From assembly GCA_003136335.1 (NCBI GenBank), contig PLEA01000365.1, forward strand, positions 1 through 22,124: DNA of 22,124 bases. Direction: 5' to 3'. The position numbers were made by a program, and so were the translations under genes. Position 1 is the first letter of the stretch; the number at the start of each line of letters is the position of its first letter. The notes under the pieces were generated by a model, which was not told the origin of the DNA, did not search any database, and was given only the letters and a program-made list of their open reading frames with translations. The stretch is from Acidobacteriaceae bacterium (lineage in GTDB: Bacteria; Acidobacteriota; Terriglobia; Terriglobales; SbA1). Shown here piece after piece: positions 6,553-17,149 of the stretch.

Positions 6553-8118
6553 ATGAATAAGGCTAAAGCGCGCTGCTCAGGGGTTCTGCGGTTGCTTGGG
6601 GCGGTTGGTCTGCTCGCCTTGCTGAATGGGGCGGTTTCTTCGCAGGCGCAAGATCAAGCTGCGCAGACTCCGGCTCAGGAACAGCAAGATCAAAAGCAGG
6701 CGGAGAAGAGTGTCCGCCCTACACAAGACCAGGCGCCGCAAACAAAGCCTTCCCAGTCGAAAGAAGACGATGAAGTCAAGATCACCCCGCGGCAAGCTGA
6801 GGAACTTTTCCATTCCGTCGACGAAATTCTGGAATTCGACAGTAAGCAGACCGGCCTGCCCATCAAGAAGGAAGTGAAGCGCAAGCTGACCAGCCGGGAC
6901 CAGGTCGTCTCCTATCTCACCAAGCATGTGAACGACGAGGATACGAAACGCCTGCGGCGGTCGGAACTGGTGCTAAAAAAGTTCGGACTGCTAACGCGCG
7001 ACTTCAATCTGGAAACATTCCTGGTTGCCCTGCTGCGGGAGGAAGTGGCGGGCTACTATGATCCAAAGACAAAAACCGTGAATTTGCTCGACTGGGTGCC
7101 CATGGAAGAGCAGGAGCCAGTGATGGCTCACGAGTTGATGCACGCGCTTCAGGATCAGTCGATTGGCCTGCAGAAGTGGATGAGGAAAGGCGAGAAAGAC
7201 CTGGGCGAAATCAGAAAAGATCCGACCCCTACCGACATCGAAAATGACGAGATGGATAATGCTCGCGAAGCCGTCATCGAGGGCCAGGCTCAAGCCATGA
7301 TGTTTCAATACGCCATGGCGCCGACCGGCCACTCGATCGCCAATTCTCCGGCGCTGGTGGACGCAATGGAAGACGAGACTCTCACTGGCACGCCCAGCAC
7401 GAAGGTATTCAATGATGCGCCCATATTCCTGAAAGAGTCGCTCACGTTTCCCTATAGCTATGGCATGGAGTTCGTGGTCAAACTGATGCAGAAAGGCGGC
7501 AAGGAGAAGGCGTTTGCCGCCGTTTTGAAAAATCCTCCGCACACCACGCGCCAGATTATGGAGCCTGAGACTTATTTGTCCGGCGAAAAGATCGAGCCCA
7601 TGCCTGTGCCCGACTTCAAGCACGACTTCAAGAATTATGAGAGGTTCGATATTGGCGCGATGGGTGAGTTCGACGTGGCCGTGCTGATCGAGCAATATGC
7701 GGGAAAGCCGTTGTCGAAGCATCTTTATCCGGAGTGGCGCGGCGGATATTACTACGCTGCCAAGCCCAAGCCGGATTACCAGTCGTCTGCGCCCGGCACG
7801 GCATCTCTGGGTTTGCTGTACGTGTCGCGCTGGTCCAGCGCCGACAAGGCCGCGGAGTTTGCGGAGATCTATGCGCGGTCGCTAAAGCAACGCTACAAGA
7901 AAGTGGATGAAGTAGGAGATCCCGCGCTGGATAATGCCGCACAGAACGTCGAATCCAAAACAGATGTCCTGAAGGGCCGCCACAGCTGGACCACCGAAGA
8001 CGGCCCGGTGGTGATCGAGGAAAAAGGCGATACCGTGCTCGTGAGTGAAGGCCTGGACGCGGCCACGACCTCAACGCTGGAGCGGGAAGTGTTCGGAGCG
8101 CCGTTAGCCCCGAAGTGA
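6553..8118 (+). CDS. Putative secreted zinc metallopeptidase (HELMH motif)
   Basis: A 521-residue protein I cannot place in a named peptidase family. A signal peptide is evident: basic MNKAKARC, hydrophobic core VLRLLGAVGLLALLNGAV, and a likely cut near SSQA-QD around residue 33. Residues 34-75 form a Gln/Lys/Pro-rich linker. The zinc motif is MAHELMHALQDQ (H193, E194, H197). The segment AREAVIEGQAQAM (237-249) places E243 (or E239) about 45 residues downstream as the likely third ligand, a gluzincin-type arrangement. Other motifs are EEVAGYYDPKT, FPYSYGMEFV and GRHSWTTEDG. The C-terminal part after about 400 looks like a separate alpha/beta module. It shares a divergent control region with a methyltransferase and ends in a probable terminator. 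Confidence 0.8.
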   Translation: MNKAKARCSGVLRLLGAVGLLALLNGAVSSQAQDQAAQTPAQEQQDQKQAEKSVRPTQDQAPQTKPSQSKEDDEVKITPRQAEELFHSVDEILEFDSKQTGLPIKKEVKRKLTSRDQVVSYLTKHVNDEDTKRLRRSELVLKKFGLLTRDFNLETFLVALLREEVAGYYDPKTKTVNLLDWVPMEEQEPVMAHELMHALQDQSIGLQKWMRKGEKDLGEIRKDPTPTDIENDEMDNAREAVIEGQAQAMMFQYAMAPTGHSIANSPALVDAMEDETLTGTPSTKVFNDAPIFLKESLTFPYSYGMEFVVKLMQKGGKEKAFAAVLKNPPHTTRQIMEPETYLSGEKIEPMPVPDFKHDFKNYERFDIGAMGEFDVAVLIEQYAGKPLSKHLYPEWRGGYYYAAKPKPDYQSSAPGTASLGLLYVSRWSSADKAAEFAEIYARSLKQRYKKVDEVGDPALDNAAQNVESKTDVLKGRHSWTTEDGPVVIEEKGDTVLVSEGLDAATTSTLEREVFGAPLAPK

Positions 8119-11429: not shown

Positions 11430-13118
11430 GTGCCCAAGAAAATGAAGAACGCGCCGCCCAGTTCTCCCTGGGACTCCGAGGTCCGGCTGCTGATTTGGCT
11501 TGCGACCTGCATCTCTGTTTTTTCCTTCCTTTTCTATTTCCAGCACGGCGATGTGTTGCTCTATGGGGACGCCGTTGCCCACATCAACATCGCGCGTCGC
11601 GTCTTCGATTCGAAAACCCCCGGCCTGCTGCAATTGGGAACTGTCTGGCTGCCCCTGCCGCACCTGCTGATGATTCCTTTCCTGATCGCCGAGGAAATGT
11701 GGCAGCGGGGTGTGGGCGGCTCGATTCCGTCGATGGTGGCGTATGTATTTGGCGTGATCGGAATGTTCCGTCTGGTTCGCGGCGCTCTCTCCCGCGGCAT
11801 CGACCCGGATCGGGCCGCTCGGGTTGCCGCGTGGACAGCAGCGTTAGTGTATGCGGCGAACCCAAATCTGATCTACATGCAGACCACCGCCATGGGGGAA
11901 GCTCTGTATCTGGCGCTCTTTATTTGGTCGGTCGTCTATGTCGGCGAGTGCCTGCGCGGGGATGCGAAGGCCCTCACGAAATGCGGATTGTGTCTGGCTG
12001 CGGCTTGTTTGACGCGCTATGACGGATGGTTCCTTGCGACAACAATCGCGGCAACAGTTCTATTGTTCAGCCTGCGCTCGGATAATGTCGCCGCGCCGAG
12101 GTTTTCCGCACCGCGGATTTCGCGAGCAACAGTCGTGAAATTCGTCTTGATCACCGCGGCCGCACCATCACTCTGGATCGCTTATAACGGAATCGTTTAT
12201 CGCAATCCCCTCGAGTTTGCGAATGGGCCCTATTCAGCAAAGGCGATTGAACGCAGGACGGAGAATTCTGGGAATCAGGGACATCCCGGCAGTGGCAATC
12301 CAGTGCTGGCCGGGATGTATTTCCTAAAATCCGCCGAAGTCAACCTGGCAGAAAACAAATGGCTGCAGCGTGCCTGGATCTTGATCGCGGTCGCGGGCGT
12401 GATGGCCGCGGCGTTGATTCGTCGCCCGCAATCAAGCATGGACGGACAATGTTCTCGCGGCGAGTGGCTGCCTCTCCTATTCTTGCTCGTGCCCTTGCCC
12501 TTTTATGCGCTGTCGGTGGCCTATGGAGGCGTTCCGATCTTCGTCCCAACGTGGTGGCCATTTTCTCATTACAACGTGCGTTACGGATTGCAGTTGCTCC
12601 CGGGCTTCGCCGCGGCGCTCGCTAACTTCGTGCATCTAGCCGTGCGGTCCACAAGGTGGAACCGGCGGCTGCGCGTGGCGTGTGTGCTCGGCGTATTCGC
12701 ACTGGTGATTGCAAGCTATGCTTTAATCTGGCGCACGGTGCCGGTTTCATTGAAGGAAGCTCAACTCAACATGCGCACGCGGAATCAACTCGAAACTGAG
12801 CTCGCGATCTGGCTCCGAAAGCTGCCGCCTAATTCCACTTTGCTCATGTACTTGGGAGATCACGTGGGCGCAGTGCAGCAGGCCGGGATTCCGCTCAAGC
12901 GGGTGATCAATGAAGGCAATCACCACACGTGGAAACGACCCGCCGACCCCGATGGTTTGTGGGAGGAAGCTCTGGCGGATCCCGCTCGATACGCCGATTA
13001 TGTGGTGGCCTTCGAGGGCGACCGTGTGTGGGAGGCAGTACAGGCCCGGCATCTGGAGGCACTAGTGGAAATCCATACCACGGGGCAAGCGCGCGCCATT
13101 CTCTACCGCGCCCGGTAA
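11430..13118 (+). CDS. GT-C-like membrane glycosyltransferase
   Basis: A 562-residue polytopic membrane protein resembling the dolichyl-phosphate-mannose-type/ArnT-like superfamily. These enzymes move a sugar from a lipid-phosphate carrier to a protein or lipid on the outer face of the inner membrane. The first membrane segment is about 19-38. An acidic motif in the first external loop, YGDAVAHIN (45-53, Asp47), matches the usual catalytic position. About nine or more hydrophobic segments follow, and a soluble C-terminal tail starts near 450. GTG at 11430 gives MPKKMKNAPP; an ATG at 11442 is an equally plausible start because neither has a good ribosome site. Donor and acceptor are unknown. 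It follows the PfkB gene by 39 bases. Confidence 0.75.
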   Translation: MPKKMKNAPPSSPWDSEVRLLIWLATCISVFSFLFYFQHGDVLLYGDAVAHINIARRVFDSKTPGLLQLGTVWLPLPHLLMIPFLIAEEMWQRGVGGSIPSMVAYVFGVIGMFRLVRGALSRGIDPDRAARVAAWTAALVYAANPNLIYMQTTAMGEALYLALFIWSVVYVGECLRGDAKALTKCGLCLAAACLTRYDGWFLATTIAATVLLFSLRSDNVAAPRFSAPRISRATVVKFVLITAAAPSLWIAYNGIVYRNPLEFANGPYSAKAIERRTENSGNQGHPGSGNPVLAGMYFLKSAEVNLAENKWLQRAWILIAVAGVMAAALIRRPQSSMDGQCSRGEWLPLLFLLVPLPFYALSVAYGGVPIFVPTWWPFSHYNVRYGLQLLPGFAAALANFVHLAVRSTRWNRRLRVACVLGVFALVIASYALIWRTVPVSLKEAQLNMRTRNQLETELAIWLRKLPPNSTLLMYLGDHVGAVQQAGIPLKRVINEGNHHTWKRPADPDGLWEEALADPARYADYVVAFEGDRVWEAVQARHLEALVEIHTTGQARAILYRAR

Positions 13119-13200: not shown

Positions 13201-13905
13201 ATGACCTGGCAACATTTTGTCGATTTGCTGCGCTGGGAGATGGCAAGCGGAGCCGTCGGCGGTTCGATCACGCGTCTGGCAGTGGCGGCGATTCTCGGCG
13301 GGCTGATCGGCCTGGAGCGCGAGTTCAAACACCGAGCGGCTGGTCTGCGCACCAACATGTTCATTTGTTTTGGGGCGGCGATGTTCACGCTTCTTTCCGA
13401 GAGGCTGGCGGGCGTCCCGTCGGATGCGGCTAGAATTGCGGCGCAGATTATCCCTGGCATCGGCTTCATTGGCGCGGGCTCGATTCTGCACACGCGCGGG
13501 CTTACCACGGGCCTGACCACGGCGGCCACGCTGTTCGTGGTGGCCTCGGTCGGAATGGCCGCCGGCGGCGGCCTTTACCTGACGGCCATGTTCGCCACCG
13601 GATTGGTGCTGCTGGCTCTGTTTGCGCTGGGTCACATGGAAGAAACGTTCAACATCAAGTTGCTGATGATGACCTATGAAGTTACCGGCGCTAGCGTCGA
13701 AGTGATCAGCAACGAGGTCAATCGCATCCTGGAAAGTCATCATCGGCTGATGAAAAACATGTGCAGCGGCAACACGGACCAGCACGTCCGCATGCAGTTC
13801 GATGTGGAGGGCTGCAGCCGCGAGCAAAAGGAATTGCTGCAGCAATTGAAAGTGTCGAATGTACTGCTTGCCGCGACTTCCCTCGGCCGGGTGGACCCAG
13901 AGTGA
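13201..13905 (+). CDS. MgtC/SapB family membrane protein
   Basis: A 234-residue inner-membrane protein. The MgtC signature includes GGLIGLEREFKHRAAGLRTN (33-52, with GLERE at 37-41) and GIGFIGAGSI (86-95). Four to five hydrophobic segments span residues 25-135. The C-terminal 90 residues are soluble and look like the ACT-like domain found in longer members. MgtC proteins affect magnesium homeostasis, F-ATPase control and survival in some pathogens, but most environmental members have no tested role. Its stop overlaps the GTG start of dapF by 4 bases, so it heads the peptidoglycan-related operon. No magnesium riboswitch is recognisable in the 82-base leader. Confidence 0.9.
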   Translation: MTWQHFVDLLRWEMASGAVGGSITRLAVAAILGGLIGLEREFKHRAAGLRTNMFICFGAAMFTLLSERLAGVPSDAARIAAQIIPGIGFIGAGSILHTRGLTTGLTTAATLFVVASVGMAAGGGLYLTAMFATGLVLLALFALGHMEETFNIKLLMMTYEVTGASVEVISNEVNRILESHHRLMKNMCSGNTDQHVRMQFDVEGCSREQKELLQQLKVSNVLLAATSLGRVDPE

Positions 13906-14708
13906 ACTCGGGTGTCCGCACGATTCCATTCGTGAAGGCGAGCGCTTGCGGCAATGACTTCCTGTTGATCGATGTTTCCCTCGCTCCGCCTGCCGCGCAT
14001 ATTTCTGCATTCACAAAGCGCATTTGCGATCGGCACGAAGGCGTGGGCGCCGATGGCGTCGAGTGGATGTTGCCGCATGGGTCGGCCGACGTCGAAGTCT
14101 GCCTGATCAACGCCGACGGTTCCGAGGCGGAAATTTCCGGCAACGGCACTCGCTGCGTCGCCGCATACTTGTGCTCCGAGCAGGGGAAAGAGAAGATTAC
14201 GATCCAGACTGGGGCAGGTCTGAAGACTTGTACTCTGACTTCGCGCAGCGACTGTGAATATGAGTTCGAAATCGAAATGGGGGAAGCTGCAGTCGAGAGG
14301 GAACTCGCATTGAAGACGTCAGATAGGGAAGTGCATGGGATTCCGGTGTCGATGGGCAATCCCCACTATGTAGTGTTCGTTCCCGAGCTTATGGAAGACT
14401 GGCAGGCGCACGCGGCGGAAATCCAGCGCAGTTCGCACTTCACGCAGGGAGTAAACGTTGAACTAGTCGCAGTCGATAGTAAGCATGATGTGAGGGCGCG
14501 CTTCTTTGAACGCGGCGTCGGGGAAACGCAATCTTCGGGCACCGGTTCTTGCGCGTCGGCAGCGGCGGCGATGGCGACGGGACGGGCAGAGTCGCCGGTG
14601 AAAGTCCACGCTCCCGGCGGAACGCAAACCGTGCGCAGGGAAGGCAATAAACTTTTTTTGCGAGGTCCGGCGCGGCTGGTGTGCCGGGGAGAGTTCTTTC
14701 TAAGTTGA
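13902..14708 (+). CDS. dapF: Diaminopimelate epimerase homologue with both catalytic cysteines replaced by serine
   Basis: DapF interconverts LL- and meso-diaminopimelate using two cysteines as acid and base. This 268-residue protein has the family length and pattern: GNDFLLIDV near the N terminus, NADGSEAEISGNGTRC, VSMGNPHYVVFV, and FERGVGETQSSGTGSC. The cysteines of the CGNG and CGSG motifs are serines here, Ser79 (codon TCC) and Ser212 (codon TCG). Other cysteines (TRC, GSC) lie a few residues away but at non-catalytic places. The GTG start overlaps the mgtC stop (GTGA); an upstream extension to 13761 lies inside mgtC and is rejected. Neighbours are LD-carboxypeptidase and mpl, both acting on DAP peptides. 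It may have lost epimerase activity, work with altered chemistry, or bind DAP peptides. Confidence 0.85.
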   Translation: MNSGVRTIPFVKASACGNDFLLIDVSLAPPAAHISAFTKRICDRHEGVGADGVEWMLPHGSADVEVCLINADGSEAEISGNGTRCVAAYLCSEQGKEKITIQTGAGLKTCTLTSRSDCEYEFEIEMGEAAVERELALKTSDREVHGIPVSMGNPHYVVFVPELMEDWQAHAAEIQRSSHFTQGVNVELVAVDSKHDVRARFFERGVGETQSSGTGSCASAAAAMATGRAESPVKVHAPGGTQTVRREGNKLFLRGPARLVCRGEFFLS

Positions 14709-14753
14709 ATTGCTGATTGTGCCGCTTCATCGGCCGCAACAGTTTTGGAGCCA

Positions 14754-15701
14754 ATGTCTTCATCCGATCCTCAGCCCGTTAAACCACCCGCGCTTCGGCC
14801 CGGCGATACCGTGGGTATTGTCGCTCCCGCCAGCAACATCAAGCGTGCGGACTTGGAAGCGGGCTGCGAGGCGCTGCGGTGCGCGGGATACCGCCCATTT
14901 TATTTCGACTCGATTCTGGAGCAGGATCTCTATTTTGCCGGATCGGTCGAGCGCAGAGCGCGCGAATTGGAGGAGATGTTCGTGCGTGACGATGTGCGAG
15001 CGATCGAGTGCGCGCGCGGGGGCTATGGCGCGAACTATTTGCTGAAAGGGCTTGATCTGAAAAAGATCAGAGCGCATCCGAAGATTTTTGTTGGGTACAG
15101 CGACCTGACTACGTTGCTAACCTATTTTTACGATGCCGCTGGCTTAGTTACTTTTCACGGACCGATGGCAGCCAAGGATTGGGCACACGCAGATGGTGTT
15201 GACCTGGAGTCGTGGCATGCGGCGGTTTCGGGCACGACACCCTGGGACGTCGCTCTGGGCGCGGGAGTCAGCGGATTGGTCGAGGGTGACGCTGAGGGCG
15301 TGTTATTCGGTGGATGCCTCTCGATCCTGGTCGCGTCGCTGGGCACGCCCTACGAAATCAAGACTGAAGGCACGATTCTGTTCCTCGAAGATCTCGCCGC
15401 CAAGCCCTATCAGATCGACCGCATGCTGATGCAATTGAAGCTGGCGGGGCATCTCGATAAAGTGAACGGCATTGTCTTCGGAGAAATGCTCGACTGCGTG
15501 CAGACTACGAATCAGGGCTACACTTTGCAGGATGTGGTCACAAGGATTGTCGGTGACTTGGGAGTGCCCGTGGCCTTCGGAGTCCGGTCGGGCCACGTTA
15601 CATCGGGGAACATCACGCTTCCGTTCGGAGTGCGGGCGCAACTGATGGTGCGGAATGGACAAGTGACATTGAGCGTATTGGAATCAGCGGTCACTAAATA
15701 A
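14754..15701 (+). CDS. LD-carboxypeptidase (peptidase family S66)
   Basis: Cytosolic S66 enzymes such as LdcA remove the terminal D-Ala from recycled L-Ala-gamma-D-Glu-meso-DAP-D-Ala. This 315-residue protein shows LRPGDTVGIVAPAS near the start, ARGGYGANYLL (87-97), and a complete Ser-Glu-His set: Ser116 in GYSDLT, Glu212 in LFLEDL, and His281 in SGHVTSGNITLPFG. No signal peptide is present, as expected for the cytoplasmic recycling form. The ATG at 14754 is chosen; a TTG at 14745 is also possible. GGAG lies only 3 bases before the ATG, a tight spacing. Its product, the murein tripeptide, is the substrate of the next gene, mpl. Confidence 0.9.
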   Translation: MSSSDPQPVKPPALRPGDTVGIVAPASNIKRADLEAGCEALRCAGYRPFYFDSILEQDLYFAGSVERRARELEEMFVRDDVRAIECARGGYGANYLLKGLDLKKIRAHPKIFVGYSDLTTLLTYFYDAAGLVTFHGPMAAKDWAHADGVDLESWHAAVSGTTPWDVALGAGVSGLVEGDAEGVLFGGCLSILVASLGTPYEIKTEGTILFLEDLAAKPYQIDRMLMQLKLAGHLDKVNGIVFGEMLDCVQTTNQGYTLQDVVTRIVGDLGVPVAFGVRSGHVTSGNITLPFGVRAQLMVRNGQVTLSVLESAVTK

Positions 15702-15709
15702 CCGACGAG

Positions 15710-17149
15710 ATGAACAAAAAAAACCACATTCACTTGATCGGCATCTGCGGCACGGCGATGGCTTCGCTGGCGGGAATGCTGAAGCAGCGCGGATTTCGCG
15801 TTACGGGCTCAGACGCTGCAGCCTATCCGCCGATGTCGGACTTTCTGCGCGAGTTGGGCATTCCCGTGGCGCAGCCGTTTGCTGCGCAGAATCTTGACCC
15901 CAGGCCGGATCTGGTCGTGGTCGGCAACGCCATGTCCCGCGGCAACGTGGAACTGGAGGAGGTGCTCGACCAGCGTATTCCATTCTGTTCTTTGCCGCAG
16001 TTGCTGCACGACGAATTCCTTCGCGGCAAGGAAGTGCTGGTCGTCGCCGGAACTCACGGCAAGACCACGACGACGTCCATGCTGGCATGGATATTTGACT
16101 CCGCCGGACTGCAACCGTCTTTTCTAATTGGCGGCATTGCCGAAAATTTTGGCTCGAGCTTTCATCTCGGCGCTGGCAAGCACTTCATCGTGGAAGGCGA
16201 TGAGTACGACACGGCTTTTTTCGACAAGGGACCGAAGTTCCTGCACTACTTTCCCGACTCGGTGATTCTGACTTCCGTCGAGTTCGATCACGCCGACATC
16301 TACAAAGATCTCGACGCCGTGGAGACGGCATTCAAGCGCCTGGTGAATCTCATTCCGCGCCGGGGACGAATCGTAGCCTTCGATGGGGCTGCAGGCGATG
16401 CGACAGAAAGCCCAAGTCTGGAGCGCTGTTTGGCGAAGGCGTTCTGCCCCGTGGAACGCTACGGCGCCGGGCCGCGTGCGAACTGGAGAGTTACAAACCT
16501 GCGACTCGAACCCGAGCGCACTTCTTGGACGGTCCTGCACGACGGCCAGCCGTGGGCCGACCTCGAGTTTCCGCTCGCCGGAGAATACAACGTCTGGAAT
16601 GCGACGGCCGCGGCTGCGCTGGCGGCTTCCTGTGGCGTTCCGAAAGATGCAATTGCGGCCGCACTGCGAACTTTCAAGAGCGTGAAGCGTCGTCTCGAAG
16701 TGAAGGCGCAGGTGAACGGCATCACCATCATCGACGACTTTGCTCACCATCCCACCGCCATCGCGGGAACGCTGAAAGCACTGCGGGCGCGGTACCCTGA
16801 CGCGCGACTATGGGCAATTCTGGAGCCGCGTTCCAATACGCTGCGTCGCCGGATTCTGCAAAGCGACTTGGCGCGCAGCCTGGCGCAGGCCGACGAAGTG
16901 ATTGTGGCGGGCGTATTCCGCTCGGAAGCGGTTCCGGAAAATGAACGTCTGGAGTTGCCCGCCCTCGCGGCAGAGATCAAGGGCAAGGGCCGGCGGGCGC
17001 GGCTTCTCGCCGACGCAGACGCCATCGTGCAGACCATTGCTGCTGAAATGCGGAGCGGCGATGTCGTGGCGATTCTTTCCAACGGCGGTTTCGGCGGAAT
17101 CTATGAAAAACTGCCGGCACGCCTGCGGGAATTGGCAGGGACTCGATGA
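15710..17149 (+). CDS. mpl: UDP-MurNAc:L-Ala-gamma-D-Glu-meso-DAP ligase (murein peptide ligase)
   Basis: Mpl joins recycled murein tripeptide to UDP-MurNAc with ATP, bypassing MurC, MurD and MurE. The 479-residue Mur-ligase-fold protein has an N-terminal Rossmann start HIHLIGICGTAMASLAGM, the P-loop GTHGKTTTTS (114-123), and the Mpl-characteristic GDEYDTAFFDKGPKF (163-177). EFDHADIY (191-198), FAHHPTAI and LEPRSNT follow, all fitting Mpl better than MurC. It starts 8 bases after the LD-carboxypeptidase stop with a GACGAG ribosome site, and its stop overlaps the next start by 4 bases. Together with the upstream enzyme it gives two consecutive steps of cell-wall recycling; the permease and amidase steps are not in view. 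Confidence 0.93.
   Translation: MNKKNHIHLIGICGTAMASLAGMLKQRGFRVTGSDAAAYPPMSDFLRELGIPVAQPFAAQNLDPRPDLVVVGNAMSRGNVELEEVLDQRIPFCSLPQLLHDEFLRGKEVLVVAGTHGKTTTTSMLAWIFDSAGLQPSFLIGGIAENFGSSFHLGAGKHFIVEGDEYDTAFFDKGPKFLHYFPDSVILTSVEFDHADIYKDLDAVETAFKRLVNLIPRRGRIVAFDGAAGDATESPSLERCLAKAFCPVERYGAGPRANWRVTNLRLEPERTSWTVLHDGQPWADLEFPLAGEYNVWNATAAAALAASCGVPKDAIAAALRTFKSVKRRLEVKAQVNGITIIDDFAHHPTAIAGTLKALRARYPDARLWAILEPRSNTLRRRILQSDLARSLAQADEVIVAGVFRSEAVPENERLELPALAAEIKGKGRRARLLADADAIVQTIAAEMRSGDVVAILSNGGFGGIYEKLPARLRELAGTR

Follow-up and report, generated by a model that had tools for sequence, protein, structure and literature searches.

Serine at both catalytic cysteine positions of a diaminopimelate epimerase homologue in Acidobacteriota

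Diaminopimelate (DAP) epimerase, DapF, is understood through a two-cysteine mechanism, which is also the basis for understanding its inhibitors and its signature motif. The stretch of DNA analysed here (hereafter the window; positions 1 to 22,124 of contig PLEA01000365.1, assembly GCA_003136335.1, Acidobacteriaceae bacterium) carries a dapF homologue in which both of these cysteines are replaced by serine. This raises the question of whether such a protein can be the epimerase on which the organism and its relatives rely. The gene and the two codons in question are the following.

13902..14708, + strand: dapF homologue, 268 amino acids, GTG start, identified by its match to TIGR00652
14136..14138, + strand: codon TCC of Ser79, at the position of Cys73 of Escherichia coli DapF (direct reading and alignment)
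14535..14537, + strand: codon TCG of Ser212, at the position of Cys217 of E. coli DapF (direct reading and alignment)

Residues of the window protein are numbered from the GTG at 13902, and E. coli K-12 DapF (L211) served as the reference for residue numbering. Ser79 lies in the context AEI-S-GNGTRC and Ser212 in GETQS-S-GTGSCA; neither the first catalytic cysteine (C73, in CGNG) nor the second (C217, in CGSG or CGTG) is present. A preliminary description of the locus had claimed serine at both sites within otherwise intact signature residues, and both parts of this claim are borne out: the codons TCC and TCG are not TGC or TGT, the serines align onto C73 and C217, and NADGSE, NG-x-RC and ERGVGETQ are all intact. 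The alignment also puts no other cysteine at the catalytic positions, as those of TRC and GSCA occupy positions distinct from both sites. Apart from the two serines, the window protein is an ordinary DapF. It scores 203.9 bits against the equivalog model TIGR00652 (cut-off 114.65), is predicted to have the DapF two-domain fold, and matches 17 distinct sequences among solved structures, 16 of which carry the name DapF, the other being an O-ureidoserine racemase. The database entry P0002 (268 amino acids) is 100% identical over the query, while P0001 is the same protein without its first three residues, beginning at residue 4.

The serine pair is widely shared. Serine occupies both sites in 121/121 rows comprising the window protein and its best 120 matches among 5.8 billion proteins, one of these hits being the window's own entry. 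When a Tunturiibacter DapF and an Aminicenantes-type DapF were used as queries, Ser/Ser was found in 120/120 and 119/120 of the best homologues, respectively, the remaining Aminicenantes-type homologue being Ser/Ser by eye rather than by pattern (each of the three protein lists is limited to its 120 best matches, out of as many as 8000). A contig scan with one genome per species gave 80/80 Ser/Ser among the best 80 of 337 relatives (L001-L080), a biased result since the scan was run with the peptides FVKASACG and AEISGNGT and the latter requires serine. These 80 are labelled as metagenome-assembled genomes of Candidatus Sulfotelmatobacter, Acidobacteriaceae, Acidobacteria, Acidobacteriales and Terriglobia, and include one Candidatus Korobacter versatilis and one Candidatus Angelobacter. 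A fairer sample was provided by 149 genomes from the phylum of the Candidatus Korobacter versatilis genome, 145 of which had a DapF match (134 over cut-off) and four of which had none (G085, G114, G138, G146). With the matches in G126, G134, G157 and G166 left out, 130 DapF loci (129 from this sample plus L190 from G017) comprised 79 Ser/Ser, 47 Cys/Cys, three Cys/Ser and one unread locus. All 13 further, more distant DapF loci, at least two of which are second genes of genomes already counted, have cysteine at both sites.

Among 159 Ser/Ser loci, codon usage was read in 158: the first serine is encoded by TCN in 150 and by AGY in eight, the latter in several branches, and the second by TCN throughout, each of the four TCN codons being used. 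The ratio of nonsynonymous to synonymous substitutions (dN/dS) ranged from 0.035 to 0.225 in 11 pairs of close relatives drawn from L001-L080, the window being in none of them. Judged from these codon and substitution patterns, serine itself is being kept. The trait is lineage-wide and under selection. The argument of the preliminary description against random decay thereby holds, and its question of whether the change is lineage-wide is answered in the affirmative for the relatives.

That description had also asked whether a normal DapF exists elsewhere in the genome. In the relatives there is, as a rule, no Cys/Cys copy: a single DapF was detected in 22/23 related genomes, and one PF01678 gene over cut-off in 50/50 Ser/Ser genomes (two matches per gene correspond to its two domains), the two genome sets overlapping. 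The exception among the 23, G017, carries a second copy (L190) that is also Ser/Ser, and sub-cut-off PF01678 matches occur in four of the 50 (G067, G004, G145, G056). A second, normal DapF is thus rejected as a rule and, by extension from the relatives, the window genome would have none either; most of the relatives' genomes are draft assemblies, in which gene absence is never absolute. The meso-DAP dehydrogenase that bypasses DapF (Ddh, TIGR01921) was over cut-off in 0/50 Ser/Ser genomes, with short sub-cut-off matches in six, and in 2/14 control genomes. LysA was over cut-off in 43/50 Ser/Ser genomes and in 22/22 genomes that are Terriglobia-like by tree position. MurE and DapB were each over cut-off in 22/22 genomes, and the two LL-DAP aminotransferase (DapL) models TIGR03542 and TIGR03540 each in 0/22, with weaker matches in all 22.

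The distal DAP-binding residues N64, N157, N190, E208 and R209 are all found in the window protein and in 96-98 of 98 Ser/Ser rows. Together, these comparisons suggest that the protein is probably the only DAP epimerase of the lineage, working with a Ser/Ser pair, and they favour an epimerase over the other reaction or binding role that the preliminary description had offered as options. In such an enzyme, LL-DAP would be converted to meso-DAP by the Ser79/Ser212 pair in place of the thiolate/thiol pair. Both serines would be placed at the N-termini of two central helices, one acting as an alkoxide base and the other as a hydroxyl acid, and a closed, dry pocket, together with backbone NH groups and the N-terminus of the helix, may lower the serine pKa. 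The cysteine of ACGNDF (L9 in E. coli) was considered as a relocated base. It is present in 118/121 of the closest rows; nevertheless it is no general answer, as it occurs in 37/98 Ser/Ser rows of the wider alignment and also in the Cys/Cys DapF of Subdoligranulum (HGCGND). No new basic residue conserved across all Ser/Ser members was seen in the alignment. Nothing was found that points to metal assistance, another of the earlier options, though no test was aimed at metals.

Trees (quick, without bootstrap, and including every fourth of L001-L080) resolved two DapF types within the phylum. The type of the window groups with E. coli and, in a second tree, also with plasmid-borne DapFs of Paenibacillus, Bacteroides, Monoglobus, Subdoligranulum and Sphingomonas. 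Within the window's group, every one of the 96 phylum rows (which include the window and 20 of L001-L080) is Ser/Ser; a distant Cys/Cys row with a very long branch (L220) attaches beside this group at 88% in the second tree. The other type, which mostly has GVPH replacing GNPH, is Cys/Cys with the exception of a separate Ser/Ser pair (L179 and L182) and three natural Cys/Ser DapFs (L109, L156 and L192). As this Ser/Ser pair and the Cys/Ser forms lie in an otherwise Cys/Cys type, the replacement of cysteine by serine seems to have happened at least twice. The direction from cysteine to serine is one that we infer, because support is weak (80-81%) for the points at which Cys/Cys enzymes from other phyla join the Ser/Ser rows. 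Eight loci (L104, L132, L135, L188, L193, L208, L209 and L210) were excluded from the trees manually as piecemeal matches, distant sequences or second copies, and the second tree lost L217, L218 and the Priestia, Acetoanaerobium and Streptomyces rows to a script filter. Overall, we lean with some reserve towards the view that much of the phylum Acidobacteriota (Terriglobia, Aminicenantes and others) would obtain all of its meso-DAP from a thiol-free, cofactor-independent two-serine epimerase that arose at least twice within DapF.

How far known enzymes offer a precedent was assessed from the literature, which is cited throughout from excerpts. Compared with DapF as represented by TIGR00652 and PF01678 and by the enzymes of E. 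coli, H. influenzae, Anabaena and Arabidopsis, the window protein has serine for both catalytic cysteines, and it fails the cysteine of the PROSITE DapF signature as quoted in PMC8225329. A natural Ser/Cys 4-hydroxyproline 2-epimerase has the same overall fold, carries serine at a catalytic cysteine position and is active, but loses just one cysteine and acts on hydroxyproline (PMC4113996). The form without both cysteines that is described in the same article, the Ser/Thr trans-3-hydroxyproline dehydratase, is a dehydratase. In fold and sequence, the window protein is not closer to these serine variants of the proline racemase superfamily than to DapF. Other close known systems are the histidine racemases HisR and CntK, PddB, and O-ureidoserine racemase, for which the roles of the cysteines are described in a review. 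HisR and PddB need both cysteines, and the Cys-to-Ser versions described for them are laboratory mutants that retain little activity (PMC11602996, PMC8225329). No report of a natural Ser/Ser DapF was found among the titles and abstract openings of the open-licence papers that literature searches returned.

The genes around dapF had been taken to favour a cell-wall function, and the following features are in line with this.

13201..13905, + strand: MgtC-family membrane protein (PF02308), directly upstream of dapF, not claimed as part of the function
14754..15701, + strand: LD-carboxypeptidase (peptidase S66; PF02016, PF17676), probable ATG at 14754 within the open reading frame 14745-15701
15710..17149, + strand: mpl, UDP-MurNAc : L-Ala-gamma-D-Glu-meso-DAP ligase (TIGR01081, 464.3 bits, cut-off 388.7)

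The S66 LD-carboxypeptidase (ldcA) and Mpl act on meso-DAP peptides during wall recycling. The order dapF-ldcA-mpl is kept in 69/69 checkable loci of the window's clade; ldcA and mpl follow dapF in 15/50 other Ser/Ser loci, 0/37 Cys/Cys loci and 0/2 Cys/Ser loci, counts that rely on similarity to the window's proteins and on at least 2.8 kb of downstream sequence, so that distant forms of ldcA or mpl could escape. The mgtC stop and the dapF GTG start overlap at 13902-13905 (GTGA), which suggests that the two genes are translationally coupled. Elsewhere in the window, the open reading frames 6553-8118 (+, 521 amino acids) and 11430-13118 (+, 562 amino acids) have no Pfam match, the latter having no NCBIfam match either.

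Several observations weigh against a working two-serine epimerase. The Cys-to-Ser mutants of PddB retain <0.1% activity, the same being reported for Mycobacterium tuberculosis DapF according to PMC8225329, and those of HisR are greatly reduced (PMC11602996). Cysteine is described as preferred over serine or threonine because its pKa is lower and it is more easily desolvated (review PMC8142540, section 7). It may be speculated that a lineage-long adaptation might differ from single-step mutants in thiol-tuned enzymes. Two residues present in 42/42 Cys/Cys rows are less constant in the Ser/Ser rows, namely His159 (72/98) and E213 (50/98). LysA was below cut-off in 3/50 Ser/Ser genomes and without a match in 4/50. 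Furthermore, a Ser/Ser-like DapF stands beside a divergent Cys/Cys partner of the CSNG/CCGTG type in G081 (L104 and L221), G091 (L133 and L223) and G116 (L135 and L222), and in G168 the Ser/Ser gene is accompanied by a Cys/Cys copy that contains an in-frame stop. As these four genomes carry both kinds, normal and Ser/Ser copies can occur side by side; in G081, G091 and G116 the two copies may have split functions. On the presence of meso-DAP in walls of Acidobacteriota, searches of the open-licence literature yielded nothing usable, and the excerpts of PMC7315648 and PMC5900883 have no bearing on it.

A further point of this kind comes from outside the phylum, where nine plasmid-borne DapF genes, chosen from named records in lists of 115 and 42, were read. 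Six are Cys/Cys, one from Sphingomonas carries cysteine at the first catalytic position and is unclear at the second, and two are Ser/Ser.

L233:12835-13779: Ser/Ser DapF-like gene on a plasmid of Streptomyces sp. NBC_01216
L234:3956-4852: Ser/Ser DapF-like gene on a plasmid of Agrobacterium vitis

Both genes probably lie within a biosynthetic (secondary-metabolism) cluster, which suggests that other amino acids may also be substrates of Ser/Ser forms. Because Ser/Ser forms sit in such apparent clusters, the serine pair alone is no proof of a wall function. The two genes were chance finds, and their shared neighbours are a 2OG-Fe dioxygenase, a molybdopterin oxidoreductase, an aldo/keto reductase and an iron-containing redox enzyme. 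A phage search returned 26 records, none with more than 60% identity.

The main rival explanation, which we consider unlikely though deserving of weight, is that the Ser/Ser protein is not a DAP epimerase and that an unrelated, unrecognised enzyme makes meso-DAP. The Ser/Ser protein could then act in another way on DAP or a DAP peptide, for example by an elimination, or by binding it and delivering it to Mpl in recycling. The almost dead Cys-to-Ser mutants (PMC8225329), the occurrence of a Ser/Thr dehydratase in the related proline racemase superfamily (PMC4113996), the recycling genes next to dapF and the joint occurrence of both types in four sampled genomes are all in line with this. However, it needs a missing epimerase in all 50 single-gene genomes and leaves the retained DAP contacts to be accounted for, and a pure binding role fails to explain serine at both sites in 98/98 rows.

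It is distinctly improbable that the wall contains LL-DAP and no epimerase is needed, lysine being made through a relaxed LysA or another route. Some bacteria, such as Streptomyces, do use LL-DAP, and the 50 genomes yielded no epimerase with the standard catalytic residues. Yet LysA, whose target is the D centre in meso-DAP, is over cut-off throughout the Terriglobia-like genomes, the window's Mpl belongs to the meso-DAP equivalog family, and a superfluous gene would hardly be kept at a dN/dS near 0.1. Still less probable is a moonlighting role without catalysis, for instance the activation of RppH by DapF in RNA decay, for which solved E. coli RppH-DapF complexes can be adduced; such a role alone would not keep the DAP-binding residues or hold the gene next to ldcA and mpl. 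Decay or a sequencing error in a single genome, finally, is refuted by conservation, since the same serines recur in hundreds of records and purifying selection acts in the relatives.

Many related soil bacteria thus appear to own just the Ser/Ser version of this enzyme for a cell-wall building block. If the two-serine epimerase is real, the rule of two cysteines in DAP epimerase would have an exception in nature. If the lineage relies on it, proton transfer at the unactivated alpha carbon of an amino acid would need no thiolate, signature-based annotation would be misleading in this lineage, and these organisms would be expected to escape DapF inhibitors directed at thiols. If, on the other hand, the protein is no epimerase, a major soil lineage would make meso-DAP in a way that is yet to be discovered.
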